NCBI RefSeq assembly: GCF_000350105.1
Contig: NZ_CAIY01000005.1
Span: forward strand, 1-64,000
Direction of reading: 5' to 3'
Origin: Richelia intracellularis HH01
GTDB lineage: Bacteria; Cyanobacteriota; Cyanobacteriia; Cyanobacteriales; Nostocaceae
DNA: 64,000 nt
Shown here: one piece after another, positions 1 through 60,579 of the stretch
How the letters are laid out: each line of letters opens with the position of its first letter
How positions within the stretch are numbered: position 1 is the stretch's first letter
The notes under the pieces: generated by a model
Databases searched by the model: none
Seen by the model: the letters and a program-made list of their open reading frames with translations, nothing else
What the model was told of the DNA's origin: nothing
Program-made: the position numbers and the translations under genes

Positions 1-2824
1 ATCCTATAAGCATTTTATTTTCCTAGGATTTTCATACTATTACTAATAAAATTTTTATTGGTAAAATTCCCTAAACATAATAAGTTAAATTAGTTTAAAT
101 CTACTAAATTTAAATATTTTAAAGTCATATAAAAAATATATCCTCGCTCTCTATCTGCAAATATAGTAACCTATGGTTAAATCTGATTATGAGTATATTT
201 AATTGTTATATTCAGTGCAGTAATTAAAGTTTGTAAAAACAACCTAAATAAGGGTTAATATAGTTGGTATTTCTAAAAAAGTAGAAAACAACTAATATAT
301 TTTTTTGTATACAGTATACATTTTTAACTAAAATAGAGACTCAGATAAAAATCTGAAGTAATAATTTCTAGTCATTAATATATTAGTGATTGATTATGCT
401 AATTTTCTGTTGAAAACGACTGCCCATTATAACCGATAATTTTGAAGTTAATCATCTTAACTACCTTGCTATTATGCACTTTCATTACATAATAGTCTAT
501 TGGAATACTTCTATTAGATCTCTGAAAGAGATTAGCAGATTCTAAATTAAATAAATTAATTTTGTGTTTTTAGTAACTACCTACTTAGTTTTTTATATAT
601 AGAGTTGCCATAAGGTAGTAAGGTTAAATTAACCTATACTTAATTAATTCACGGTATGATTTGAATCTTACTACCCATATTAGACAATATATATTTCAGA
701 AGTAATTGATACTTATGGTTACCAATTAATCATAAAACTAAAAAGAATAGAGAGAAAATTATCTATGTAAGTTTAAGTCTAAAAGTAATTTTATCCTGTA
801 AGGGAAGACTTTGGATAATAAAATCTACTGTCCATTTTGCTCTTTCATAATTGTCCACTTGAATAGATTAAGTTTAATTGCTACGGAAAATTTTATTTTA
901 ATTAGTGGTATTTACCCAATTGGAAGTTCTGATAATGGAAATTAATTTTTGCTTGTTAAGCTAACATGAGTATAAATAACACTCCCTATACAAGAAATTC
1001 TATTTGGAATGATAATTTATATCTTCGCTTCAATCTCTACTTGGATCTTGGTTTATGATCAGTAAGTCTTTATATGAGTTTATGATGACTTGAGGTTTAG
1101 AAGTCAAGCTGCTGACAATTTACACTCTACTCTAATATATACTTCGGAAGTGTCATCTCATATACCAGGTAATGAGTCGGAAATAACTAATCCTACTTGT
1201 CTTCTTATTGCTACTCTACGATTAAATATGATCACCACTAATCTTATTTTCCAGATCAAGCAATAGTTGATCAAATAATCACCATCGCGTTCGGGTAACA
1301 ATCCGGATGCTTAGTGGGAAATTATGTATATCCCCACTTATCAAATTATTGGGGTGTAACTTTTAACTAGAAAATCAGGGACTATACAGTAACTATTTCT
1401 CCAGTATTTATGTCAAATTAAACAGTATTAGTTCAATCCATAACTAAAAATTTGTCTAGAACAAAGTTTATTATTGTAAGTTCCCCATCCTTAGTTATAC
1501 GTATTAAACATTCTGTTTCATAGTTTTGGTAATATCACACATGGGTATTTGTTTTTGTCAGAGAATCTGAAATAACAAAGTAGATTCAAGTATTTCTAGA
1601 CTCTCTGATAAGACAATCTACTAATAACAAGGATTTAAAGGAATTAGACAGGTTACAAAATCTAGAAAAATTACTAAATTCGGGATATTCCCAAAAACTT
1701 GGGATAGGCTTAGCTAAGTCATAACCTGTAGGGGATAAAAAAATAATATCAAGAATAATCATTACAACCTGCACAAAAAATTAAGGACAAAACGGCAAAC
1801 AAGGGTAATTGCGAAGGAAATTGAGCAATTACATGGTCAACAGGCTCGTTCTCAAGTATTGGTAGTAAAATATAATAATCTTGGCACCTTATGCATACAT
1901 AAATCAGGCATAGATATACTTATACTACCCCTGACAATTTCATGGTGGTAATCATATATTATTAAAAATTAAAAAGCCATCTTTCATGAATAACGCTCAC
2001 CCCATATATCCAACGCTTTAAGTGACCTGGATGGGTTTTATAATACCTTGTATGATATGTTTCTGAATAGAAAATAGTTCAACAATCTATAAAACTGGAA
2101 ATCTAATTTTACTAATTGTTACTAGAATTAGTTTCTTCTGAAACCCCTAATAATAGATATTATACAATTGTATGACTAAAATTATTCACATTTTTCACTA
2201 CACACTAGGTATATAAGGACAAAACCTATCTTTGTCAAAAGTCTCCGGGAAAATATTAATATGAAGTCATATCCAGTTTGCAGTGCTAGTACAGAAATTA
2301 TATAATAACCTAGAAATAGGGCTTTGCAAAAAGCTAAAAGTAAACAAGGCAGATAATCCTATATCAATAGCTGATAAAAGTGTTCATTTGATTAAGAACT
2401 AAATTCACAGATAAATCCAGCACCCCCAAAATCATTTCTGGAGGATTTATTGATGATCCCTATTAGAATCACAATAATATGATATTCCTAGAGTGAAAAA
2501 TTATGAAGTTAAACAGGGAAATTAGACATATCAAAGATACTTTTTTAAAGTAATATTCTAGGAGTAATCATATTAGATAAATTATCCTTATTACTTAGTA
2601 AAATTGACTACCATGGGCAGAATCTGAAAATTCACCAATGTGTTAGTAAGAACTAATCAATGATAACAACAACTCAAATATGCTCACATAATACTTCAAT
2701 TTTGTTTAACATTAACTTTACAGCTTGGGGGTAAACGGGAAATTAATTAAGTATTGTACACATATAAACACATACTGTATTTTACCTGTAATTATAGCTG
2801 CAGTTATGTTTTTACCACTAACTA
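1..2824. other. Gene-poor AT-rich spacer
   Basis: No intact gene was found on either strand. The longest coding-looking stretch is an open plus-strand frame at about 1772-1951 that lacks a start. Its translation is rich in K, R and Q and contains the string RVIAKEIEQLHGQQARSQVL, which reads like decayed protein rather than random AT-rich DNA, but I could not assign it. A minus-strand frame at 1586-1774 overlaps this region and has no support. I take the whole stretch as degenerate intergenic DNA. Confidence 0.5.
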
Positions 2825-3304
2825 TCAATTATCGAAGATGTCGAAGAAGACATCATCCAATTCATATCCCAAAAGTTTTGCCATAGAATGGATTCGGGGA
2901 CGGAAAGGTATTTCCTGTTGACCCAACCAATTGGTAAGTACAAATGACTTATTCATTAAAAATATCTCTAGTGCCTCCGCATTATACTCAATGCCTTCTT
3001 GTGAGCTAAACTGGTGAGGGACAAGCATAGCAGTGTAACGAATAAATTCTCCCATCTTCCAGTCCAGTAAAAATGGTAACCAAGGATATAGAGAATCAAG
3101 ACGGATAAACCATAATCGCACTTCAGGTATTTGTGATAATTCTCTAGGATCACCTAACTCCTTTTCATAGTCGAAAATAAATTTTAGTTTTTGTTCATAC
3201 GATGCAATTTCCCCTTTTGCAAGTATATTTTCAATTACTTTTGTTGCTGGGGATAAATCTAAACTATTAATACATTCATTATTTAAGGTGATCGTAGCTG
3301 TCAT
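2825..3304 (-). CDS. crr6: CRR6-family NdhI maturation factor (DUF1817)
   Basis: A 159-aa soluble protein with no signal or membrane segment. The central block (residues about 45-110) with IPEVRLWFIRLDSLYPWLPF, LLDWKMGEFIRYTAMLVPHQ and YNAEALEIFLMNK matches what I remember of the CRR6 (chlororespiratory reduction 6) family. Family members help assemble the NdhI-containing part of the NDH-1/NDH complex that drives cyclic electron flow. Length is typical of cyanobacterial members. The ATG start is followed by MTATITLNNECINSLDLSP, a usual N-terminus for the family. It stands alone in an AT-rich region. The family call is from memory of conserved blocks, not a search. Confidence 0.7.
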   Translation of the reverse strand: MTATITLNNECINSLDLSPATKVIENILAKGEIASYEQKLKFIFDYEKELGDPRELSQIPEVRLWFIRLDSLYPWLPFLLDWKMGEFIRYTAMLVPHQFSSQEGIEYNAEALEIFLMNKSFVLTNWLGQQEIPFRPRIHSMAKLLGYELDDVFFDIFDN

Positions 3305-3460
3305 TGATTCGGAATATAATAATACTTTGGTTTTAATAATTCACATCCTAACTTGAAAATAGAGAAAAGATTCTATTTTTAGTTTAATAGTAAAATATGG
3401 TATGATGAAAAATATAATAGCAGCTAATATTAGTGTCGTTATAGCTGTTGATAATCAAAG

Positions 3461-3593
3461 CCTATATGATTTTGCAGGCTAGAGAATATAGGCTTGGGCT
3501 AAGGAATATCTTTCTCGACTTTTCAAACTTGTCTAAAACTTGCAACTCAACATTTCCTAAGAAGAAATTCTCTCGCTCCCAAAATCATATAGG
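3461..3593. repeat. MITE-like 133-bp inverted-repeat element
   Basis: The outer 14 bp (CCTATATGATTTTG at 3461-3474) recurs as a perfect inverted copy at 3580-3593. The similarity continues inward imperfectly: left AGGCTAGAGAAT matches the inverted right end GAGCGAGAGAAT, and left CTAAGGAA pairs with right TTCCTAAG. The unit therefore has imperfect terminal inverted repeats of about 45 bp around a short core with no coding capacity. This is the architecture of a miniature inverted-repeat element or a collapsed insertion sequence. No second copy was noticed in this window and no clear target-site duplication was confirmed. Confidence 0.55.
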
Positions 3594-3758
3594 TTAAAGC
3601 CTTCCTTCTTTCATGAGGTCTAGAAATTAGTGATGGAAAAATAAACTCATTTAGGCTTGACTAATAATTCCATATATATATTTTAATAACTAAAGATTTA
3701 TGATATACAGTACTGTCTGTACTAAGTATAAATTATATAGGCTATTATCTAGTGGCAG

Positions 3759-4130
3759 ATGAGCAGTTCTCAACTAGTTTTCTCTGAGTTTGCCATTCTG
3801 GTGATTGGGATTATATTATACAAATTTAGGTTTCAGACTAAATACACTATTTACCTAAATTTTAGGAGGCTTTTATTAAAATTATTGATGGTACTCTTGA
3901 GAGCATTTTTAGTCTATGAATCAGGAAAAGAGATCTTAACTTGTTTCAATAATGTGATAAAATTAGTACCCATATCAGCAGTAACTAATGTATTATTATT
4001 ATTATTAATGATCAACCCTAAGGTTATTAATAAGACAATATCTGAATTTATCATAAGCTCAAGATACTGCAACCTGACTAAGTCTAATCAAAAAAATATT
4101 TATCTTCATCTGCATCACTTATTATTGTGA
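3759..4130 (+). CDS. Doubtful 123-aa membrane ORF
   Basis: An open frame of 123 codons starting ATG, without an obvious ribosome-binding site. It has a hydrophobic N-terminal segment (residues about 8-22), another around 35-55 and a leucine-rich stretch near 78-88. I do not recognise any family. Long hydrophobic frames arise by chance in DNA this AT-rich, and there is no neighbour that would support a function. It could be a decayed membrane protein or not a gene at all. Confidence 0.22.
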   Translation: MSSSQLVFSEFAILVIGIILYKFRFQTKYTIYLNFRRLLLKLLMVLLRAFLVYESGKEILTCFNNVIKLVPISAVTNVLLLLLMINPKVINKTISEFIISSRYCNLTKSNQKNIYLHLHHLLL

Positions 4131-4701
4131 ATGGATATTTATTATAAACTCAAGTATTTTTATCTAAACTTATATTAATTTTGGCATTTATTTTAAGTAA
4201 AAACTTCACCACAGGTTTCAGAAGCAAATAACACTATGATAAATGTTTGAATTTTTTTTTAATAAACCTGTTGGTAACTATATCAAATATTGATGTTAAG
4301 CATCTAATCAATTCAGCATACTTGAATCCATCAGTAAAACATTTAGACGTTATTAGAATATAGTACCAGTTTATAACTCGCCCCCCATAGCCATTCCTAC
4401 ACATATCCGCAGCATAAATACCACCATATTTTTTCAGGCACTGCCTTAAGTTCTTTAACTATCTATATATCTAATAATTATATTAGGTAAATATCAGGGG
4501 TTTGATCTCAAAGAAAACTATTAAAAGAAACCATGCAGTTGTTCTACCATTTTTAATTCCGATGATAATCCCTTTGCCTTTGCGACTAGCAAACTAACAT
4601 TGATTTCTCCTCAAATTGGCTATACCTTTTATATATATCTCTCTTTAAATTTTTTGATACATAATTGCAAGTAATAATAAAAAAATTATTCTTTTCTATT
4701 T
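4131..4701. other. Intergenic spacer
   Basis: No intact gene. On the minus strand at about 4535-4620 there is a short open stretch reading LLVAKAKGLSSELKMVEQLH with a stop on each side. It could be a remnant of a gene downstream of the 4702-5163 gene but cannot be identified. Confidence 0.4.
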
Positions 4702-16235: not shown

Positions 16236-16246
16236 CCCCCCCCCCC
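16236..16246. repeat. Poly-C tract (C11)
   Basis: Eleven consecutive C residues in otherwise AT-rich spacer DNA, about 250 bp downstream of the ferrochelatase-like gene. Such tracts are unstable in length. No gene covers it. Confidence 0.9.
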
Positions 16247-32383: not shown

Positions 32384-33384
32384 TCATTTATGTTTACCTT
32401 ATGGGAAGATAATGCCTTTCTAGTAGGTATTTGAACAACATTAAATATTTTCTGATGTTTATCCCATTGTTTCCAAGTACAATACCCCAACCAACGCCCT
32501 TCAATCGAAGCAAACCACTTTCTTGTGGCCAAAGTTCCTTGGCTGGGGAGTAAACGCAACCATTGAATTAAACCCAAAGCATCCCGAGTTCCTACGAATA
32601 CAGCCCAAGTAATAAACACGATATTTTGTACAGGAGAGAAATACTCTAATAGGCCTAGAGTTTCATTGTGAACAGCGTTGATAAAAGCTAATTGATGGAA
32701 TTGCTGTCTTTTATCTTCGTCAAAACGTTTTGCCGGATAGTGATTTACTTTGATTTGAGGATCATAAACTAACTTCCAACCTGATTTTTTTAATGCCAAA
32801 CAAAATGCTAACTCAAAATGCACCTGAGCTCCCGTGCCATGCATTCTCTTATCAAAACGTAAATCAGAAATGGCACTACTACGAAAACTCATATTGACTC
32901 CTTTAAGAACATCTACTTCTCTAATTCCTCCCACACCTAAGTGGTGATTTCCAATTACCCGTCCAAACCATTGCACTTTTCCTACTATGTTACTGGAACC
33001 ATCTTCCAACTGATTATTTTGGTAAATGCAGTCCCTTCCCCCTACAGCAACAATGGAATTATTATTATCAAAGCGATGGCTAATTTTAGCTAACCAAGTT
33101 GGATGAGGTGCAGCATCATCATCAGTGATAGAAACAATATCACCACGAACCACTGATAATCCTGTATTGAGAGCAGCAACTACTCCTGGAACGAATACTG
33201 TAACAATTTCTAATGGTAAATTACCGGGGTCAAATTCTTGCAAAAATTTCCAGGTTTCTTGGTCGGTATTCCTAACTACTACAATGACTTGAGTTGCTGG
33301 TTTTGTTTGAGCTTGGATTGCTAACAAGCAGCAGGATAAATCTATAGGACGTCGATAAGTTGGAATAAGAACAGTATTTCTCAT
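32380..33384 (-). CDS. Family 2 glycosyltransferase (HEP cluster)
   Basis: A 334-aa GT-A enzyme beginning RNTVLIPTYRRPIDLSCCLL. The sugar-nucleotide metal-binding motif is VSITDDDAAPHPTWLAKI (DDD), and GVNMSFRSSAI plus GAQVHFELAFCLALKKSG fit the acceptor side. There is no membrane-spanning anchor; a hydrophobic stretch near 250-270 may bind the membrane surface. It overlaps the upstream GT4 by four bases (ATGA), indicating translational coupling. It probably adds one sugar of the envelope polysaccharide repeat; the linkage is unknown. Confidence 0.85.
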   Translation of the reverse strand: MRNTVLIPTYRRPIDLSCCLLAIQAQTKPATQVIVVVRNTDQETWKFLQEFDPGNLPLEIVTVFVPGVVAALNTGLSVVRGDIVSITDDDAAPHPTWLAKISHRFDNNNSIVAVGGRDCIYQNNQLEDGSSNIVGKVQWFGRVIGNHHLGVGGIREVDVLKGVNMSFRSSAISDLRFDKRMHGTGAQVHFELAFCLALKKSGWKLVYDPQIKVNHYPAKRFDEDKRQQFHQLAFINAVHNETLGLLEYFSPVQNIVFITWAVFVGTRDALGLIQWLRLLPSQGTLATRKWFASIEGRWLGYCTWKQWDKHQKIFNVVQIPTRKALSSHKVNINE

Positions 33385-34504
33385 TGATGACTCAACTCTT
33401 CAAATAAATTTAAATAGGCTTGTGACATATTTTTCCAGCTGTGTTCTTCAGCTATAATTCGTGCGATTTTTCCCATACTTTTCATTTGAGAGGGATGATT
33501 TACTAGGAATGAAATTGCTAAACTTAGACTTTGAATATTATTACAATCTTGTAAAACTATGCCTGATTCGGGAGTCACTAATTCTGCACCCCCGGTAGTA
33601 TCCGCTGTGATCACGGGTAGCCCTGAAGCCATGGCTTCTAATAAAACTAGGGTACAAGCTTCATAACGGGAAGGAAAAACAAATATATCAGCTGCACGCA
33701 TGATTGCTGCCATATCCTGACGATAGCCCAAAAAATGTACCCGTTTTTCTAAACCTAGGGAGGTTGCTAACCCAGGAAAAGGACTTGTTTCCACATCGCC
33801 AACCACTGCTAAATGGATATTAGGAACTTGAAGTAAAGCATAGAGAATAGTATCTAAGTTTTTTCTGGATGTGCGAATATCTCCTGCAAATAGAGCCAAA
33901 GTTACATTTACTGGTAAACCTAATTGAGTACGAGGAGTTTTACCCGGGGTAAATTCTTGTAAATCCACTCCATTAGTAATAGTGCGTATTTTTTGTACTG
34001 GTATGCTAAGTTTTACCAATTCTTGTTTAACTTTTTCTGATACAGCTACAATTAATCGTGCTTTTTGAAAAGATTGTTGTTCCAAAATTGAATTTACGGC
34101 AGTATATACCCATTGGTAAGCACTATATAGATTACAGCGTGTGCGAAAAATGTGAGCAGGTGATTTTAACCAAGAACTATGGACAAAATGAACTGCATTT
34201 ACATCTGCTTTAGCATTTGTGATAGCACCATTAACTTGAATCACATCAAATTTTTTTCTATTATGGTAAAGCCAGATAGTACTTATTTGGGCAAAAAAAA
34301 GTTTCTTAGTAATTCTGTAGGAAGAAACTTAACTGGTATATAGATAAATTCTAACCCTGGATAATCCCTGATTTCTGATGCAACTTCACTAGCTATCAAA
34401 GTAATTTGATGACCTTGATTAGCAGATGCTTTGACTATTTCGTAATTGACTCTTCCTTGCCCGTCACCTTTTTTAATTTTATGATTTACAATACATATTT
34501 TCAT
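33381..34504 (-). pseudogene. Family 4 glycosyltransferase split by a T8 frameshift (HEP cluster)
   Basis: Start is ATG 34504 (MKICIVNHKIKKGDGQGRVN). The first frame ends after LLRNFFLPK, but changing the T8 run of the coding strand (34293-34300) to nine T restores the frame: AQISTIWLYHNRKKFDVIQV leads directly into the second segment (from about 34244). The restored protein has 374 aa. The GT-B C-terminal domain is well preserved: ALFAGDIRTSRKNLDTIL, FVFPSRYEACTLVLLEAMAS (the E-x7-E region) and GLPVITADTTGGAELV. It ends overlapping the next GT2 by ATGA. Either a fresh pseudogene, a sequencing error, or a gene read through slippage. Confidence 0.85.
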
Positions 34505-34550
34505 ATTGAATTTTAAGATTTTTTTGATGAACAAAAAGTAATATTATTAC

Positions 34551-35542
34551 TTATCGATAAGATTTTAGTAATTGGTTAGTAATTTTTTGGGGTATATAGC
34601 TAAGAATTAAAGTTGACAAGTTTCGAAAGCTAAAATTATGTGATTTAATTACTTTCCAAATATAGGTTCTAGCCGCCTTCAATTGTTCTATTTTTAGTAA
34701 ACCAATAGCTAAAGTTGTATGAGCATCTAGATATTTTTTTTGGAAATAAGGATAAAAACTTTTAGTTTTTTATCCTCCATAAATTGTTGATAACAAAAAA
34801 TTTCACTTTTAGCTTTGCGTATTTTAGCTTCAGCATTTCGCCTACCACTCTGCATTGTGTCTGTATATAAATGTTCTCTATACTTAGCTAGTCTTTGTGG
34901 AAGATAAAAAGCTCCATAATCATCAATACAACATAAATAGGTTAAATATAAATCCCACATTCCTCCTACTTCTGTAGGAATTTTATCCCAATCAATAAAA
35001 TCTCGACGAATAACACAAGCCGCAGCAGTAGGAATAGATTTATTAATTAATCCAAGCTCAATGAAGGGTTTATAAGTTGCTTCTTCCAGGAGAGATCTCT
35101 GATATATCCTACTATATCTTTCCGTGGCAATGGTATCAATAATACCTTCACTATTAATTATTAATTGATCACAAAATGCTATAACCAAATTATCATCTTT
35201 TTCTAAAATGGGAACTAATTTTGCTAAAAAATCACATTCCCAAATATCATCATCATGTAAACTGGCAACATATTTACCTCTTGCCATTTTTAGTGCATGA
35301 AGTTGATTGGCAATCATACCAATATTTTCGTTGTGTTGCCAATACTTGATTCTGGGGTCAGGGAATGATTCCACTATTTCCTGAGTGTCGTCAATACTAC
35401 AATTATCAGAAACAATTATTTCAATATTTTGATAGGTTTGCTTGATTGCACTATCAATTGCTTGTTTTAGATAATAACATCGATTATATGTAGGAATAAC
35501 AACACTAACTAAAGATTGATATTTTCCTGTATTGATTAGCAT
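34551..35542 (-). pseudogene. Family 2 glycosyltransferase with late frameshift (HEP cluster)
   Basis: ATG at 35542 opens SLVSVVIPTYNRCYYLKQAI, a classic GT2 N-terminus; SLHDDDIWECDFLAKL carries the DxD-like metal site. The open frame stops at 34727 after 271 residues, but its last ten are out of character. One missing base at about 34754-34763 explains this: in the other frame the protein continues FYPYFQKKYLDAHTTLAIGL, then LKIEQLKAARTYIWKVIKSH, to TAA at 34551. The restored length is 330 aa. The catalytic domain is intact in either case, so the truncated enzyme might still work. Confidence 0.85.
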
Positions 35543-36570
35543 ATTTCTTAGTTTAACCGAAGATAAATTAACTCAATCAACTAAATTGACTGAATTGTTA
35601 GATGAGTTTGTAAATAAGAGACAATAGAATATTAGTCTCTAGGTAAGAAGACTTTTAATACTAGATTAGCATTATAAAAATACCTGTCAGCATGGCCGAT
35701 TTTAGAATTAATAAAAAGATATTGTGCTCTATCTGATATTTATTTACTATCTATTAAACGATTATTTTATCTTTCATATCAACATATTTATCGATTAGTA
35801 TACAAAATTCAATTACACAATCATCAGCATAGATTGTTTGATAGAATATTCCAGTTAAAAAATACTCAATATATAATTAAGTGATATTTTAGTTTGATAT
35901 ATAATGTTATTTCTAAAAGAAAATAGCATTGCTATAAAGTAATTTAAATTAATGTAGTATAGAAGATACATATATTATTGCAATTGGATTAATCTAAGGA
36001 CTCTAATTGATGGGATATAATATCCTATTTAAAGCTTATAACATTCAGAGAAATAAAAGTTGAATTCTCTTAGTCAAAAGTAAGTATTTGTAAGTATCGA
36101 ATACAAATAATAAGATATTAGTGTTAAAGATAAAACCCACCATTTTATCTTTAACATTCCTACAACTCTAAATAAATTGCAAAAAGTATACTTTATAAAC
36201 TCCAACTGGAATAAATAAAGAGTATTTTAAGTTCTAAAAAAACTACGATAATGTTATAATAGCCCATACTAAGTATAAAAGTGTTAGATTTAAGCAAAAG
36301 CAAAAATTAAAATCTAGAATCATATAAATCAAGCGTAGTTGTTAAAAATACTTTTGTTAGAGTAAAACAAAAAAAGATGAAGTAAGCATAGTTTTTTGTA
36401 ATTAAATTGAAAATTATGACAACGATTTAATATTAGCTTGAATTAAAATTCATGAATAAATAAATATAGCTATGGAATTGAAGTTATTTTCAACAAAATG
36501 ATTAAACTTAATTAATGATTTCAGTGAATTCTGATCCAGAAGTTATAAGGCTGGAGTTATTTCTCAACTT
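35543..36570. other. Spacer inside the polysaccharide cluster
   Basis: About 1 kb between hepA and the GT2. I find no intact gene. On the minus strand at about 35620-35740, RAQYLFINSKIGHADRYFYN appears in an open stretch without a start; it may be chance or a remnant. Confidence 0.4.
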
Positions 36571-38409
36571 TTACTGCATTTCATACTGGGTTTTGTGATA
36601 TTGCCAAAGCTTGCCTCGTAATTTGAGTAATTCCTGATAATTGCCTTGTTCAATGATTTTTCCATGTTCTAAAACAATCACTTTATCAGCTTTAGCAATA
36701 GTAGATAAACGGTGAGCAATCACAATTACTGTTTTACCCACAGCTAGTGTTTCCAAAGATTCCTGAATTAACTTCTCTGTGACAGAATCTAATGCACTGG
36801 TAGCTTCATCTAAAATCAGAATTTCAGGATTCCTGAGTAGAGCACGAGCAATCGCAATTCTTTGTCTTTGTCCACCAGATAAACGCACGCCACGATCACC
36901 TAAAATACTATCAAAGCCTTCTGGCATATCTTGAATAAAATCAATAGCATTAGCTAATATTGCAACTTGTTTTATTTCCGCTTGAGTTGCCTCTTTTCTT
37001 CCATATGCAATATTATTCCAAACTGAGTCATTAAAGATAAATGTATCCTGGCTAACTACAGCCATTTTGTTGCGTAGGGAGTTTACTTCTAGTTGCTTAA
37101 TATCTATACCATCTATAGATATTATTCCATCAGTAACATCATAAAAACGCGGGATTAGATCTGCTAAAGTTGTTTTTCCAGCACCAGTCCCTCCTACAAG
37201 TGCAGTCATTTTACCCCGTTCAATACTTAAGGTGATATTCTGTAAAACTAAATGTTTTTTATCATAACCAAAGTCAACAGAAATTAAATCTATACCTTTT
37301 TTTAAGCCAGGAAAAAGTATTGAACCATTTTGAAAATAATTTTTGTTATCTCTTCTTAATAGTTCTTGGATATTGTTAATTGAGCCTTGGAGAGTACTGA
37401 TAAAAGCCATAGTGGCATTAACATCCTGCATAATTGGAACCAGACGGAATAAAACAAAGAAAAATGTCAATAGTGAGGCTACTTGTAAGCTACCAATTAC
37501 TACATATCGACTAAAAGCCAATATAATCATGCTCACAATTATGGTAGTTGCTATTCCTTCCGCAAATGGCTTAATTAATGTCCATGTAAGAGCAACTTTC
37601 TTAGAAGCGTGGATCACATTTTCACTGGCTTGATAATAACGCTGGCGTTCAAAATCTTGGGTTGTAAATGCATGTACTGTACGAATACCTTGAATAAACT
37701 CCATAGCAGTAGATGTGAACTTACCATTAGCAGTTGACATACCAAAACTTCTCTCTCTAATTTTGGCATTCAATGTTTTAAAACCTACACCTAACAAAGA
37801 AAACAACAGTACTGAAACTATAGTTAATTGCCAAGAGATAATCAACATAAATATCAGGTATACAATTGTAGTTAGCCCCCTAGTAAGTAAAAATGATGCC
37901 CCACTAAAACCCTGTTTGACACGTTCAATTTCAATAGTTAAGGTATTAACAATCTCACTGGAACTATTTTTGTTGAAATAAATAATAGGAAGAGATTGCA
38001 ATTGCTCAAATACCTGTTTACGTAAGCGATCACCAAGGTTTAGCTGAACTAATTCGGTATTCAACTGTGCTAAGTAGTTAAAACCTGCACGAATCCAGGT
38101 TGCAACCAAAATTAAGATTGATATCCGGTATAAACGACTGGTAACTGACGTATCAATACCTAAAATAAAAGTATCAAACCAATTGATACCTATTTGGAAT
38201 GGTTCTGCATTTGGGGTCGTTAGTTTTTGCAAAAAAGGCACAAGTAAGCCAATACTTACTCCCTCAAAAATTGCTGCAAGTATAGAAAAAACTAGGGCAA
38301 GGATTGCAATTATAAAAAAATATTTAAATTCTCTAAGTATAAGATAATTTCTTTTTAATATTTTTTGGATGATAAATTTCCAATTTTTATATTCATACTG
38401 TTTAACCAT
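36571..38409 (-). CDS. hepA: ABC exporter HepA (envelope polysaccharide)
   Basis: A 612-aa half-transporter: membrane domain with six helices (about 30-330) and nucleotide-binding domain (about 365-612). The latter has Walker A GGTGAGKTTLADLIPRFYD, Q-loop VVSQDTFIFNDSVWN, signature LSGGQRQRIAIARALL, Walker B EILILDEATSALD and the H-loop IAHRLSTI, all canonical. Position next to hepC within a polysaccharide cluster matches hepA of Anabaena/Nostoc, which is needed to form the heterocyst envelope polysaccharide layer that limits oxygen entry. It is intact. The name rests on gene order plus family; on sequence alone it is an MsbA-type exporter. Confidence 0.82.
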   Translation of the reverse strand: MVKQYEYKNWKFIIQKILKRNYLILREFKYFFIIAILALVFSILAAIFEGVSIGLLVPFLQKLTTPNAEPFQIGINWFDTFILGIDTSVTSRLYRISILILVATWIRAGFNYLAQLNTELVQLNLGDRLRKQVFEQLQSLPIIYFNKNSSSEIVNTLTIEIERVKQGFSGASFLLTRGLTTIVYLIFMLIISWQLTIVSVLLFSLLGVGFKTLNAKIRERSFGMSTANGKFTSTAMEFIQGIRTVHAFTTQDFERQRYYQASENVIHASKKVALTWTLIKPFAEGIATTIIVSMIILAFSRYVVIGSLQVASLLTFFFVLFRLVPIMQDVNATMAFISTLQGSINNIQELLRRDNKNYFQNGSILFPGLKKGIDLISVDFGYDKKHLVLQNITLSIERGKMTALVGGTGAGKTTLADLIPRFYDVTDGIISIDGIDIKQLEVNSLRNKMAVVSQDTFIFNDSVWNNIAYGRKEATQAEIKQVAILANAIDFIQDMPEGFDSILGDRGVRLSGGQRQRIAIARALLRNPEILILDEATSALDSVTEKLIQESLETLAVGKTVIVIAHRLSTIAKADKVIVLEHGKIIEQGNYQELLKLRGKLWQYHKTQYEMQ

Positions 38410-38551: not shown

Positions 38552-39270
38552 TTACTTGAACAAATAACCAAATAATGATGGTATCTTATTTAGATATTTT
38601 TGATCTAGATAAGATAAATTAATTGCTTCTTTCAAACTATAAGATGTTGAACCGAACAAAGTCATTTTTCCTCGGATTACATTCAGTAATCCGGGAATGA
38701 TCTCAAAAGTATATTTGTAGATCATTTGGGTAATATCAACTTTATAATCCATGCGTGTATTAACAATACCATTATTAGTAGTTAATTTAATTAATTTGAA
38801 TAATCTCCCACGCTGTCCTACATACCATATATAAGTAGTCGTTAATTGATAGTAATTAAATTGCATCCATATTAATACAGTTATTGTTAATGGTATTAAA
38901 AGAGTGATTAAGATACAAGCTAACAAACTATTAATTAATAATTGTAATATATTTAGTAATTGGTTGTTAGTATACTGTTTAGGGATACATAAATATATCG
39001 GCTTATTAGCTTCCTGACAAGCATTTATCCAGAATAGTAATTGTTCTATACCTAATTGTGGATCAATGCGGATCAAATTAATATGAGAATTACGTAAACA
39101 ATTTATTAAATCTTGTTTTTCCTCCAATTCACAAATATATCCATTTTGTTTATTATAATCAGCAGCTTTTACTAATAACTGATTCCTCCGCCATAATAGA
39201 TAATATTTTTTTTCTTAACCTGAATATCACTCCTCTGTCCAGCTACACAATTCATAATTGATGTATTCAT
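38552..39270 (-). pseudogene. hepC: HepC-like sugar transferase with A8 frameshift
   Basis: Start ATG 39270 gives MNTSIMNCVAGQRSDIQVKK and then fails. Adding one A to the A8 run of the coding strand (39206-39213 on plus) gives KKYYLLWRRNQLLVKAADYN, leading into ELEEKQDLINCLRN and on to TAA at 38552; the restored product has 239 aa. A helix pair at about 118-135 is followed by YVGQRGRLFKLIKLTT and EIIPGLLNVIRGKMTLFGST, the undecaprenyl-phosphate sugar transferase (WbaP/WcaJ-type) signature regions. HepC is thought to start or modify the envelope polysaccharide repeat. It directly precedes hepA (142 bp). A TTG at 39127 gives a shorter frame that lacks the conserved N-terminus. Confidence 0.8.
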
Positions 39271-41164
39271 TTTCTCTATTTTATGAAGAGAACGTGGCTA
39301 AATTTTAATTAAAGTTTTCCATACTACACTAGTAAAATATTATTTTTTATAGTGTTGGAACTCATCAAAGTATATATCCTACTATGGGAATAATCAACTA
39401 TTAAATTATGATAATGTAAATCTTTACATACTCTTTAAAAAGACTAATTTGAATTAGTTAATAAGTTTTTATAAAACAAAGTATAATTTATATGAAATAA
39501 TACACACAACATAAAATTATATATGAGTAAGACTTTACTTATTTTTTTAATAAAAGTAGTAATACATACAATTACTGAGGTAATAGTATAGAAGTATAAG
39601 CAGCATAACTTATTAGATATAATAGTTATGAATAATATGTGTGTAATAATATATAGCATATCTAAAATTAGCTTGAATTTATTTTATTTCTTAAACTAAT
39701 AATTATGTTTATATTGAAATAGAATAAATTATAGTCTGAATCTATAAATATATAGGGAGATTATTTATGATAACTTTATATCCTATTAAAAACTATTCAT
39801 TTAATATTCCATAGAGATATTATATGGGTTAATATTATCATCTCAAAAAATCAATAAATTTTTCCTAATTAAAAGACCAAGAGATGAATTTAGTATTGTT
39901 AAGATTTTATATTAGAGCTGTTTAATAAATAAGAGATAATAAAAAATCAGCAGTCAGATATAGAATATGCTACATGTTAAGTGATTATTAAACTGAGCGT
40001 TACTAAAATGGACAATAGCTCGGATTAAATATGAGGACATTTGACTTACTATGATGATCATTAATCATAGTTATTTAATGCTAAAACAATGCAATTTTTG
40101 AGTAACGCGTAAAGATAATTTATATAAACCCGATAATAAATGATTTTATATTATTTTTTCTTCACTGTAACTTACTATTTAGTAGACCTTTTATTTAAAA
40201 TATCCTATGCTCATAAAAATTAATAAATAATTATATTTCAATAAACTCGAATAATAAGCTTTACATGGAAAAATATTGAAATAAGATGTATTAAATTTTA
40301 GTCCCTAGCAGAATATTGAAATAGGTTTTGGATGTCTTGAATTTCAGTGATAAAATAAGATAGTATAGTAAATACAAGTACAGTATATTGCAAAAATATA
40401 AATAATCATTAACAAATTTTTAGTATATGGTATCGACAGATTATGATTTTTTTTGATAAAATCAAATTTATATGTATATAGGTTTAAATAATGTAACTAT
40501 ATTTGTTTATAAATCTGGAGATAAATATTATAAAAGTTTTCATTCTTTATTAAGATATAGCAAAAAAATGGTATTTGTTATGGGTCTAGCAGGATAAACA
40601 GCATTATAGTTATCTAATCTAAGAAAAGTCACACATGCTATCATAGCATATGATGACATTTATCATTTAATATATAAGTGTTGAAACTCTTTAAAATTGT
40701 TGATTATTTAAGAATTTATAGTGAATAATAAGATTATGCTATTAAATCTCTTTATCAAAATATGTAAGGTGGTGTTTTAGTCTAATATCTGGATTGATTT
40801 TTAATTCTTAAAACTTTCGTCTAAATTTTTAAATTCATATAAATACCTCCATCTTCTTGCTCTTTTACGAATCTTTGCATTTATAAAAGAATTGCCCTTT
40901 GCCTAGAAATAAATACTTAGGCTGGGGCATTATTAATAACTTAAATCTTTTATCAATTAATATTGATGACTGGCATTAAGTATTATTATTATTATTAAGT
41001 TATAATAAAATATACTCTCATTATAATTTGGCCACAATACCTTATTAGCACTTAATATTTTAAGTATCGTGATCCTATATTATAAATGTAGAGTATATTG
41101 GTCTTATCAAAGATAATAAAATGCTTTTAAAATAAGGGTGTTTATATTATACATATACATTTTC
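39271..41164. other. Long spacer upstream of hepC
   Basis: About 1.9 kb between the Wzc-like gene and hepC, with no supported gene. Because hepC and hepA lie downstream, their promoter is expected here. A GTA-N8-TAC match to the NtcA consensus occurs at 40368-40381, but without a convincing -10 at the expected distance. Confidence 0.45.
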
Positions 41165-59835: not shown

Positions 59836-60579
59836 ATGGGTGCAACACTCAAAATTAAACATTATTTTCTATGTATCAATTTTTCATGATTGGCTTATAG
59901 TATTATCCTGGCCTTTTCACAGCTATTTTTATTTTTGACTTCATCTAATCTGGCAGTGGGTATTGCTGCCAGATTAGATGATTGGCATTTCTCTCCTGAC
60001 AGGTTACAATTAAAACTTAATTTATTAGGAGATACTCAACCTCGGCACTTTTCTTTAAAAAAAACCAAATAGGATTGTTATTGATTTACCTAATACCAAA
60101 TTGGGTTGTGTTCCTAATAAACAGGAATTCTCTGGAGCTATCAAAAGCATACGTCTCTCTCAATTTAATGCAGATGTCACTCGTGTTGTTTTAGATATCA
60201 AGCCGGGCAATATATTAAATGCAAATCAATTGCAATTACAATCCTTTACCTGGAAAGGTGAAAATATTTGGGTATTACATCCTAGCAAGAGTTTAGATTA
60301 TAACAAGGGTTCTGCTGACTTTTATGCTCAGGTAGGAAATAATAAAATAATCAAGATGAAGGAATTACAAATTCCCACATCGTATCTATACTCAAATGAT
60401 AATAGTATTTATCCTAATAATCAATCAATACTTTGAATCGTTCAACTAATAGTTATCTTCCTATTCCCATCAATCTTAAAAGACCAGACCAGTTAGTTGT
60501 GCTACCCTTGAATAGTAATAATGAAATCCAACTTTTATTCCCCTTTAATTCGATTAAACCTCCATCAGTGATTAGATAA
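59836..60579 (+). pseudogene. AMIN-domain envelope protein, pseudogene
   Basis: From ATG 59836 the frame reads MGATLKIKHYFLCINFS, an in-frame TGA at 59887, then a signal-like helix AYSIILAFSQLFLFLTSS and LDDWHFSPDRLQLKLNLLGD. At an A8 run (60057-60064) the frame is lost; deleting one A gives KKPNRIVIDLPNTKLGCVPN, joining the second part with IKSIRLSQFNADVTRVVLDI. A further one-base shift near 60420 leads to STNSYLPIPINLKRPDQLVV and TAA at 60579. AMIN domains (here about 40-140) bind peptidoglycan and are found in AmiC amidases and secretins. No amidase domain follows. With one stop and two shifts it is very likely dead. Confidence 0.8.

Follow-up and report, generated by a model that had tools for sequence, protein, structure and literature searches.

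In the window analysed here, a 64,000-nucleotide stretch at the start of contig NZ_CAIY01000005.1 of Richelia intracellularis HH01 (source genome 3,240,816 bases in 90 contigs), the gene identified below as hepC is not one continuous reading frame, being broken at a run of eight A on its coding strand. This break is probably due to homopolymer miscalls in the assembly. The initial annotation had treated the lesion as isolated, but three genes of the same polysaccharide island and at least four genes elsewhere in the sampled genome, including the sole full-family match to valS, are broken at runs of 7-9 bases, which moves the weight towards an artefact. We infer that the missing base is absent from the data and not from the organism.

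The hepC gene, its frames and its relatives

From its ATG, the start frame runs for 32 residues (MNTSIMNCVAGQRSDIQVKKKNIIYYGGGISY) and then meets two stops. The second frame is closed on its 5' side by a TAA that immediately precedes the A8 run and reaches its stop at 38552, so that a single frame change, which has to be of -1, is possible only at or just after the run. It had been proposed that the N-terminus and the remainder of the gene lie in different frames meeting at the eight A, that the remainder is open to its stop and that one extra base at the run gives a protein of 239 residues; all of this was confirmed, coordinates and length included, the second frame being free of stops over 219 codons (Table 1).

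Table 1. Coordinates of the hepC locus and of genes split at homopolymer runs (window positions unless a locus is named)
Feature	Position	Strand	Basis or remark
hepC as assembled, in two frames	38552..39270	-	PF02397 match of downstream part; position upstream of hepA
A8 run (T8 on the + strand), frame change by -1	39206..39213	-	sequence
Conserved N-terminal piece (MNTSIM...), start frame	39214..39270	-	aligned with N-termini of 30 relatives
Rest of hepC, second frame, open to stop	38552..39205	-	
TTG, first codon of longest mechanical ORF in second frame; not natural start	39125..39127	-	
HepC site aligned with Asp-Glu pair (Glu lacking), two codons before LPQL-equivalent	38699-38704		sequence alignment
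hepA, ABC transporter, intact neighbour, rate control	36571..38409	-	86% identical to same-genus G001
A8 (coding strand) in GT2 gene (34554-35572), shift by -1	34734-34741	-	
T8 (coding strand) in GT4 gene (33384-34543), shift by -1	34293-34300	-	
A8 in AMIN-domain gene, probably split, one base too many	60057-60064		only downstream half with Pfam match
C9 splitting valS, only full-family match in genome	L074 17994-18002 (own genome C47)		
A8 splitting sufS-like gene	L080 8753-8760		halves match consecutive parts of one Pfam profile
A8 splitting manC-like gene	L076 330-337		halves match consecutive parts of one Pfam profile
A7 splitting heme oxygenase gene	L075 17167-17173		halves match consecutive parts of one Pfam profile

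The downstream part of the gene matches PF02397 (E 6.6e-07, 29.5 bits, cut-off 27), and a homologue was found in 39 of the 60 genomes searched, including all 35 other genomes of the same family. In the window and in all 20 loci of relatives examined, this gene precedes hepA and has the same orientation, with more than 1 kb between the two genes in three of the 20. As judged from this shared position and from homology, the gene is hepC, the PF02397-type gene upstream of hepA that belongs to the heterocyst envelope polysaccharide island and resembles sugar transferases. An exact search with the flanking pattern of the locus gave no match in viral and genome contig collections, which may omit records of the genome itself, and a protein scan of the genome contig collection for a second copy of the locus confirmed no relative, although the genome search had found relatives.

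Thirty relatives, out of the 39 genomes with a match, were aligned. In all 30, a single frame covers the stretch from the N-terminal Met to the end of the WRRGQLLVK motif, and none has a run of at least 7 bases in this stretch, the A run thus being private to the window genome. The window gene shares with the HepC of these relatives the position upstream of hepA, the N-terminal start, WRRGQLLVK and the sugar-transferase domain, and differs from it by the frame broken at A8 and by a linker 13 nt below the usual length. HepC matches with internal stops were seen in L025 (genome G035) and in G047, where hepC may have been lost.

The alignment also bears on where translation begins. An ORF from TTG 39127 does exist, and the initial annotation had raised the possibility that this is the natural start, which would make a 191-residue HepC the ordinary product. 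Such a start was ruled out by the homologues and is of practically negligible probability, as the product would lose both the conserved N-terminus and the WRRGQLLVK region, which lie upstream of the TTG in every one of the 30 relatives aligned. Most of these relatives have 30 residues (90 nt) between the start and the W of WRR, where the window has 77 nt. In one relative (L026) the linker has 26 residues and is in frame, which indicates that a shorter linker is tolerated. The proposal that hepC was broken by a single base therefore stands as one possible history and not as the only one, since the shorter linker is equally compatible with one deletion of 13 nt, or with an in-frame loss of 12 nt together with one base.

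Regarding the activity of the protein, the aligned solved enzymes (WbaP/PglC-type comparison) read DELPQL at the site where the catalytic Asp-Glu pair of monotopic phosphoglycosyl transferases of the WbaP/PglC kind precedes LPQL. The Glu is absent from all 31 HepC rows (N in 21, K in four, R in two, and Y, G, H and I in one each), that is, HepC does not show the catalytic pair expected of an active enzyme of this kind; going by this alignment, it may be no active transferase.

After trimming, window and G001, a genome of the same genus, share about 50% identity in HepC and 84% in HepA (the searches gave 51% and 86%). The corresponding values for the pair G001 and G024 are 43.7% and 84.3%; HepC thus diverges fast among all relatives compared, the low identity between window and G001 is not special to the window, and a strong relaxation of constraint on hepC was rejected. 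In trees with 20 relatives, the HepC terminal branch measures 0.641 for the window and 0.413 for G001 (ratio 1.55), and that of HepA 0.134 and 0.099 (ratio 1.35), which amounts at most to a slight acceleration of hepC. In a neutral simulation, the 219-codon frame had a 5% chance of staying free of stops once divergence reached 5%, and a 0.5% chance at 10%. The idea of a pseudogene long in decay was discarded, as so long an open frame is unlikely beyond a few per cent of neutral divergence; these low odds of survival mean that constraint on hepC persisted until very recently or acts still.

Genes split at homopolymer runs in the island and elsewhere

When nine genes of the HEP island were compared with the G001 proteins as reference, six were found in one frame, and GT2, GT4 and hepC showed one split apiece, always by -1 and at an A/T run of 8 bases. 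GT2 and GT4 are unbroken in G001 and G024, and the halves of the window GT4 correspond to consecutive Pfam parts. The island has three coding 8-mers, every one of them a break point, and eight coding 7-mers, which are intact; a fourth 8-mer, at 40447, is intergenic.

Beyond the island, a sample of 449 kb, made up of the window and 20 further stretches (385 kb, about 12% of the genome), was scanned without reference for frame switches. The scan returned 26 switches flanked on either side by 80 or more open codons, five of them containing a run of at least 7 bases against 0.38 expected, and a looser scan gave 18 switch records at such runs, some of which are duplicates or spurious frames. Besides the genes of Table 1, a HAD-like gene is probably split at an A7 run, only one of its halves having a Pfam match. 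A cell without ValS is not viable, and valS is a single open frame in G001. The breaks at long runs hit genes regardless of essentiality (valS, sufS-like, heme oxygenase, manC-like, GT2, GT4 and hepC). They also go in both directions, with one base too many in valS and probably in the AMIN-domain gene, and one too few in the other split genes. The sample also contains 19 intact coding 8-mers, and no A/T run of 9 was found intact inside a long ORF of the sampled genome.

The control DNA comprised 618 kb (170 kb of G001, 240 kb of G014, and 208 kb of hep loci from 19 other genomes). There too, the raw counts show an excess of runs at switches (at 60 codons, 11 against 2.9 expected in G001 and 6 against 1.9 in G014), largely owing to spurious frames and transposases; this excess was consequently dropped as a genome-specific signal, and the argument for an artefact rests on the kind of gene hit. 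Only two of the 16 control switches at runs of at least 7 bases split one gene, in both cases an IS630-type transposase (HTH plus DDE). No non-transposase gene split at a run was seen in the 618 kb of controls, with 30 of 32 pieces checked against Pfam, the other two being the frames that encode hepA in L044 and L045. Non-transposase splits and intact runs of at least 7 bases in long ORFs number 7 and 96 in the sample against 0 and 100 in the controls (Fisher p 0.014, or 0.029 without hepC), and for runs of at least 8 bases they number 6 and 19 against 0 and 25 (p 0.022), in tests that are small and with genes sorted by Pfam and partly by eye. A/T runs of at least 9 and of 8 bases number 6 and 65 in the sample against 13 and 21 in G001 (p 0.0007), a shortage expected if long runs are recorded short, but not a specific one, as G014 (2 and 12) and other relatives (1 and 15) also have few.

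Origin of the break

The initial annotation had considered a lesion that was very recent, an artefact or tolerated; its reading of the sequence was correct, and the splits in other genes, valS among them, shift the weight to the second option. In this explanation, the assembly would record the A run of hepC one base short, as it apparently does at other 8-base runs, and hepC would probably be intact in the living cell and would encode a normal HepC, a membrane protein that resembles sugar transferases and serves the heterocyst polysaccharide layer. Miscounted runs are the simplest common cause of errors that occur in both directions, include essential genes and go with few A/T runs of at least 9 bases. 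Length errors at homopolymers in draft assemblies likewise add or drop single bases at runs of 7-9 bases, regardless of the importance of the gene. On the other side, a single genuine 13-nt deletion would account for the hepC linker with no sequencing error, and genuine replication slippage strikes the same runs. HH01 may have been pyrosequenced; the sequencing platform of the assembly is not given in the consulted passages of PMC10299089, PMC8776783, PMC12596568, PMC11804610, PMC12903740 and PMC4390886.

It is unlikely, by comparison, that hepC suffered a genuine and very recent inactivation, by loss of a base from the A run or by a 13-nt deletion ending there, as an early stage in the decay of the polysaccharide island of a shrinking endosymbiont genome. 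For Richelia (eu)intracellularis HH01, which lives inside Hemiaulus hauckii, the part of PMC8776783 consulted gives a genome of 3.24 Mbp; the congener G001 has about 5.5 Mb. This difference, the linker 13 nt under its usual length and the HepC terminal branch of 1.55-fold that of G001 (1.35-fold for HepA) would suit such a decay. There is also real erosion in this genome. The same part of PMC8776783 describes an HH01 SulP gene fragmented in four, attributed to 'incomplete sequencing or gene erosion', which is probably the SulP-like gene found here in several frames on contig C66 (L138) of the genome, at about 2574-4279. Between 2900 and 4400 of C66 no run of at least 7 bases was found, the only T6 (3004-3009) does not coincide with a SulP break, and this fragmentation, from the distribution of its breaks, looks like genuine erosion, different in look from the single breaks at runs. 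Against a recent lesion of hepC stand the low neutral odds of its 219-codon open frame, by which any loss must have happened very recently, and the set of genes affected: the selective loss of a dispensable pathway matches poorly with three island genes hit only at 8-mers and with the breaks in valS, the sufS-like gene and the heme oxygenase gene.

Finally, the frameshift could be genuine but tolerated, with RNA polymerase slipping on the A run, or the ribosome by -1 on A_AAA_AAT, so that a fraction of the product is full-length HepC; this is quite improbable. IS630-type transposases undergo programmed -1 frameshifting at an A run; hepC shares with them the -1 change at such a run, but it is no transposase and its intact relatives have no such run. 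Poly(A)-tract frameshifts have reportedly been described in Blochmannia and Buchnera (Tamas 2008, Wernegreen 2010). The required direction, one A added, agrees with slippage, the heptamer A_AAA_AAT is present in the hepC start frame, and the RNA just downstream of the run folds slightly better than shuffles (z -2.15, 6/200), a mildly unusual value from a single test made without homologues. However, the loss of one base from any A run leaves a slippery sequence, and the presence of the heptamer is therefore not evidence. Nor is the frameshift kept across species among the 30 relatives, none of which has the run. The junction of the two frames at A8 and the open remainder of the gene are what an indel in an A/T run would leave, a picture that the 13-nt deletion fits as well, and the branch ratios to G001 are those given above. 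Frameshift rescue by slippage has been proposed for insect endosymbionts, and in Blochmannia vafer eight genes have such frameshifts, the four unique ones showing no unusual acceleration (PMC3017870, in part). In Buchnera, transcription insertions fall almost wholly in A/T runs and rise exponentially with run length; the part of PMC5574713 consulted reports no insertions in G/C runs, while valS needs one C fewer, and no transcription error restoring a frame.

The window gene resembles the Blochmannia and Buchnera cases in its apparent single -1 break in an A run, its AT-rich endosymbiont genome, the open remainder and perhaps the little acceleration. It differs in belonging to a cyanobacterium and in its run of 8 bases, against the at least 9 counted there (PMC3017870, in part); besides, the C9 break and the probable one-base excesses in this genome could not be mended by slippage of the insertion type. 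Extending the same idea to the whole genome, so that the run breaks are all real and many genes, essential ones included, are decoded through slippage of polymerase or ribosome at 7-9-base runs, is a very doubtful proposition.

Implications for the HH01 gene inventory

The HH01 assembly serves arguments about the functions lost by a diatom endosymbiont. Should the recorded lengths of its long runs be wrong, some of the 'pseudogenes' and short ORFs, three heterocyst polysaccharide island genes among them, would be intact, and counts of gene loss would be inflated. If the runs are correct, essential genes would be decoded across frameshifts, and true breaks at runs would bring a phenomenon of insect endosymbionts to a photosynthetic, nitrogen-fixing symbiont of diatoms. 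The literature searched, itself only a part of the whole, contained no report of a frameshift in Richelia hepC. The published 'gene erosion' of HH01 is open to the same doubt about run lengths, although the fragmented SulP gene is not broken at runs.

A separate observation in the window concerns a C11 run at 16236-16246, located upstream of an ORF in AT-rich surroundings, whose length is perhaps also unreliable.
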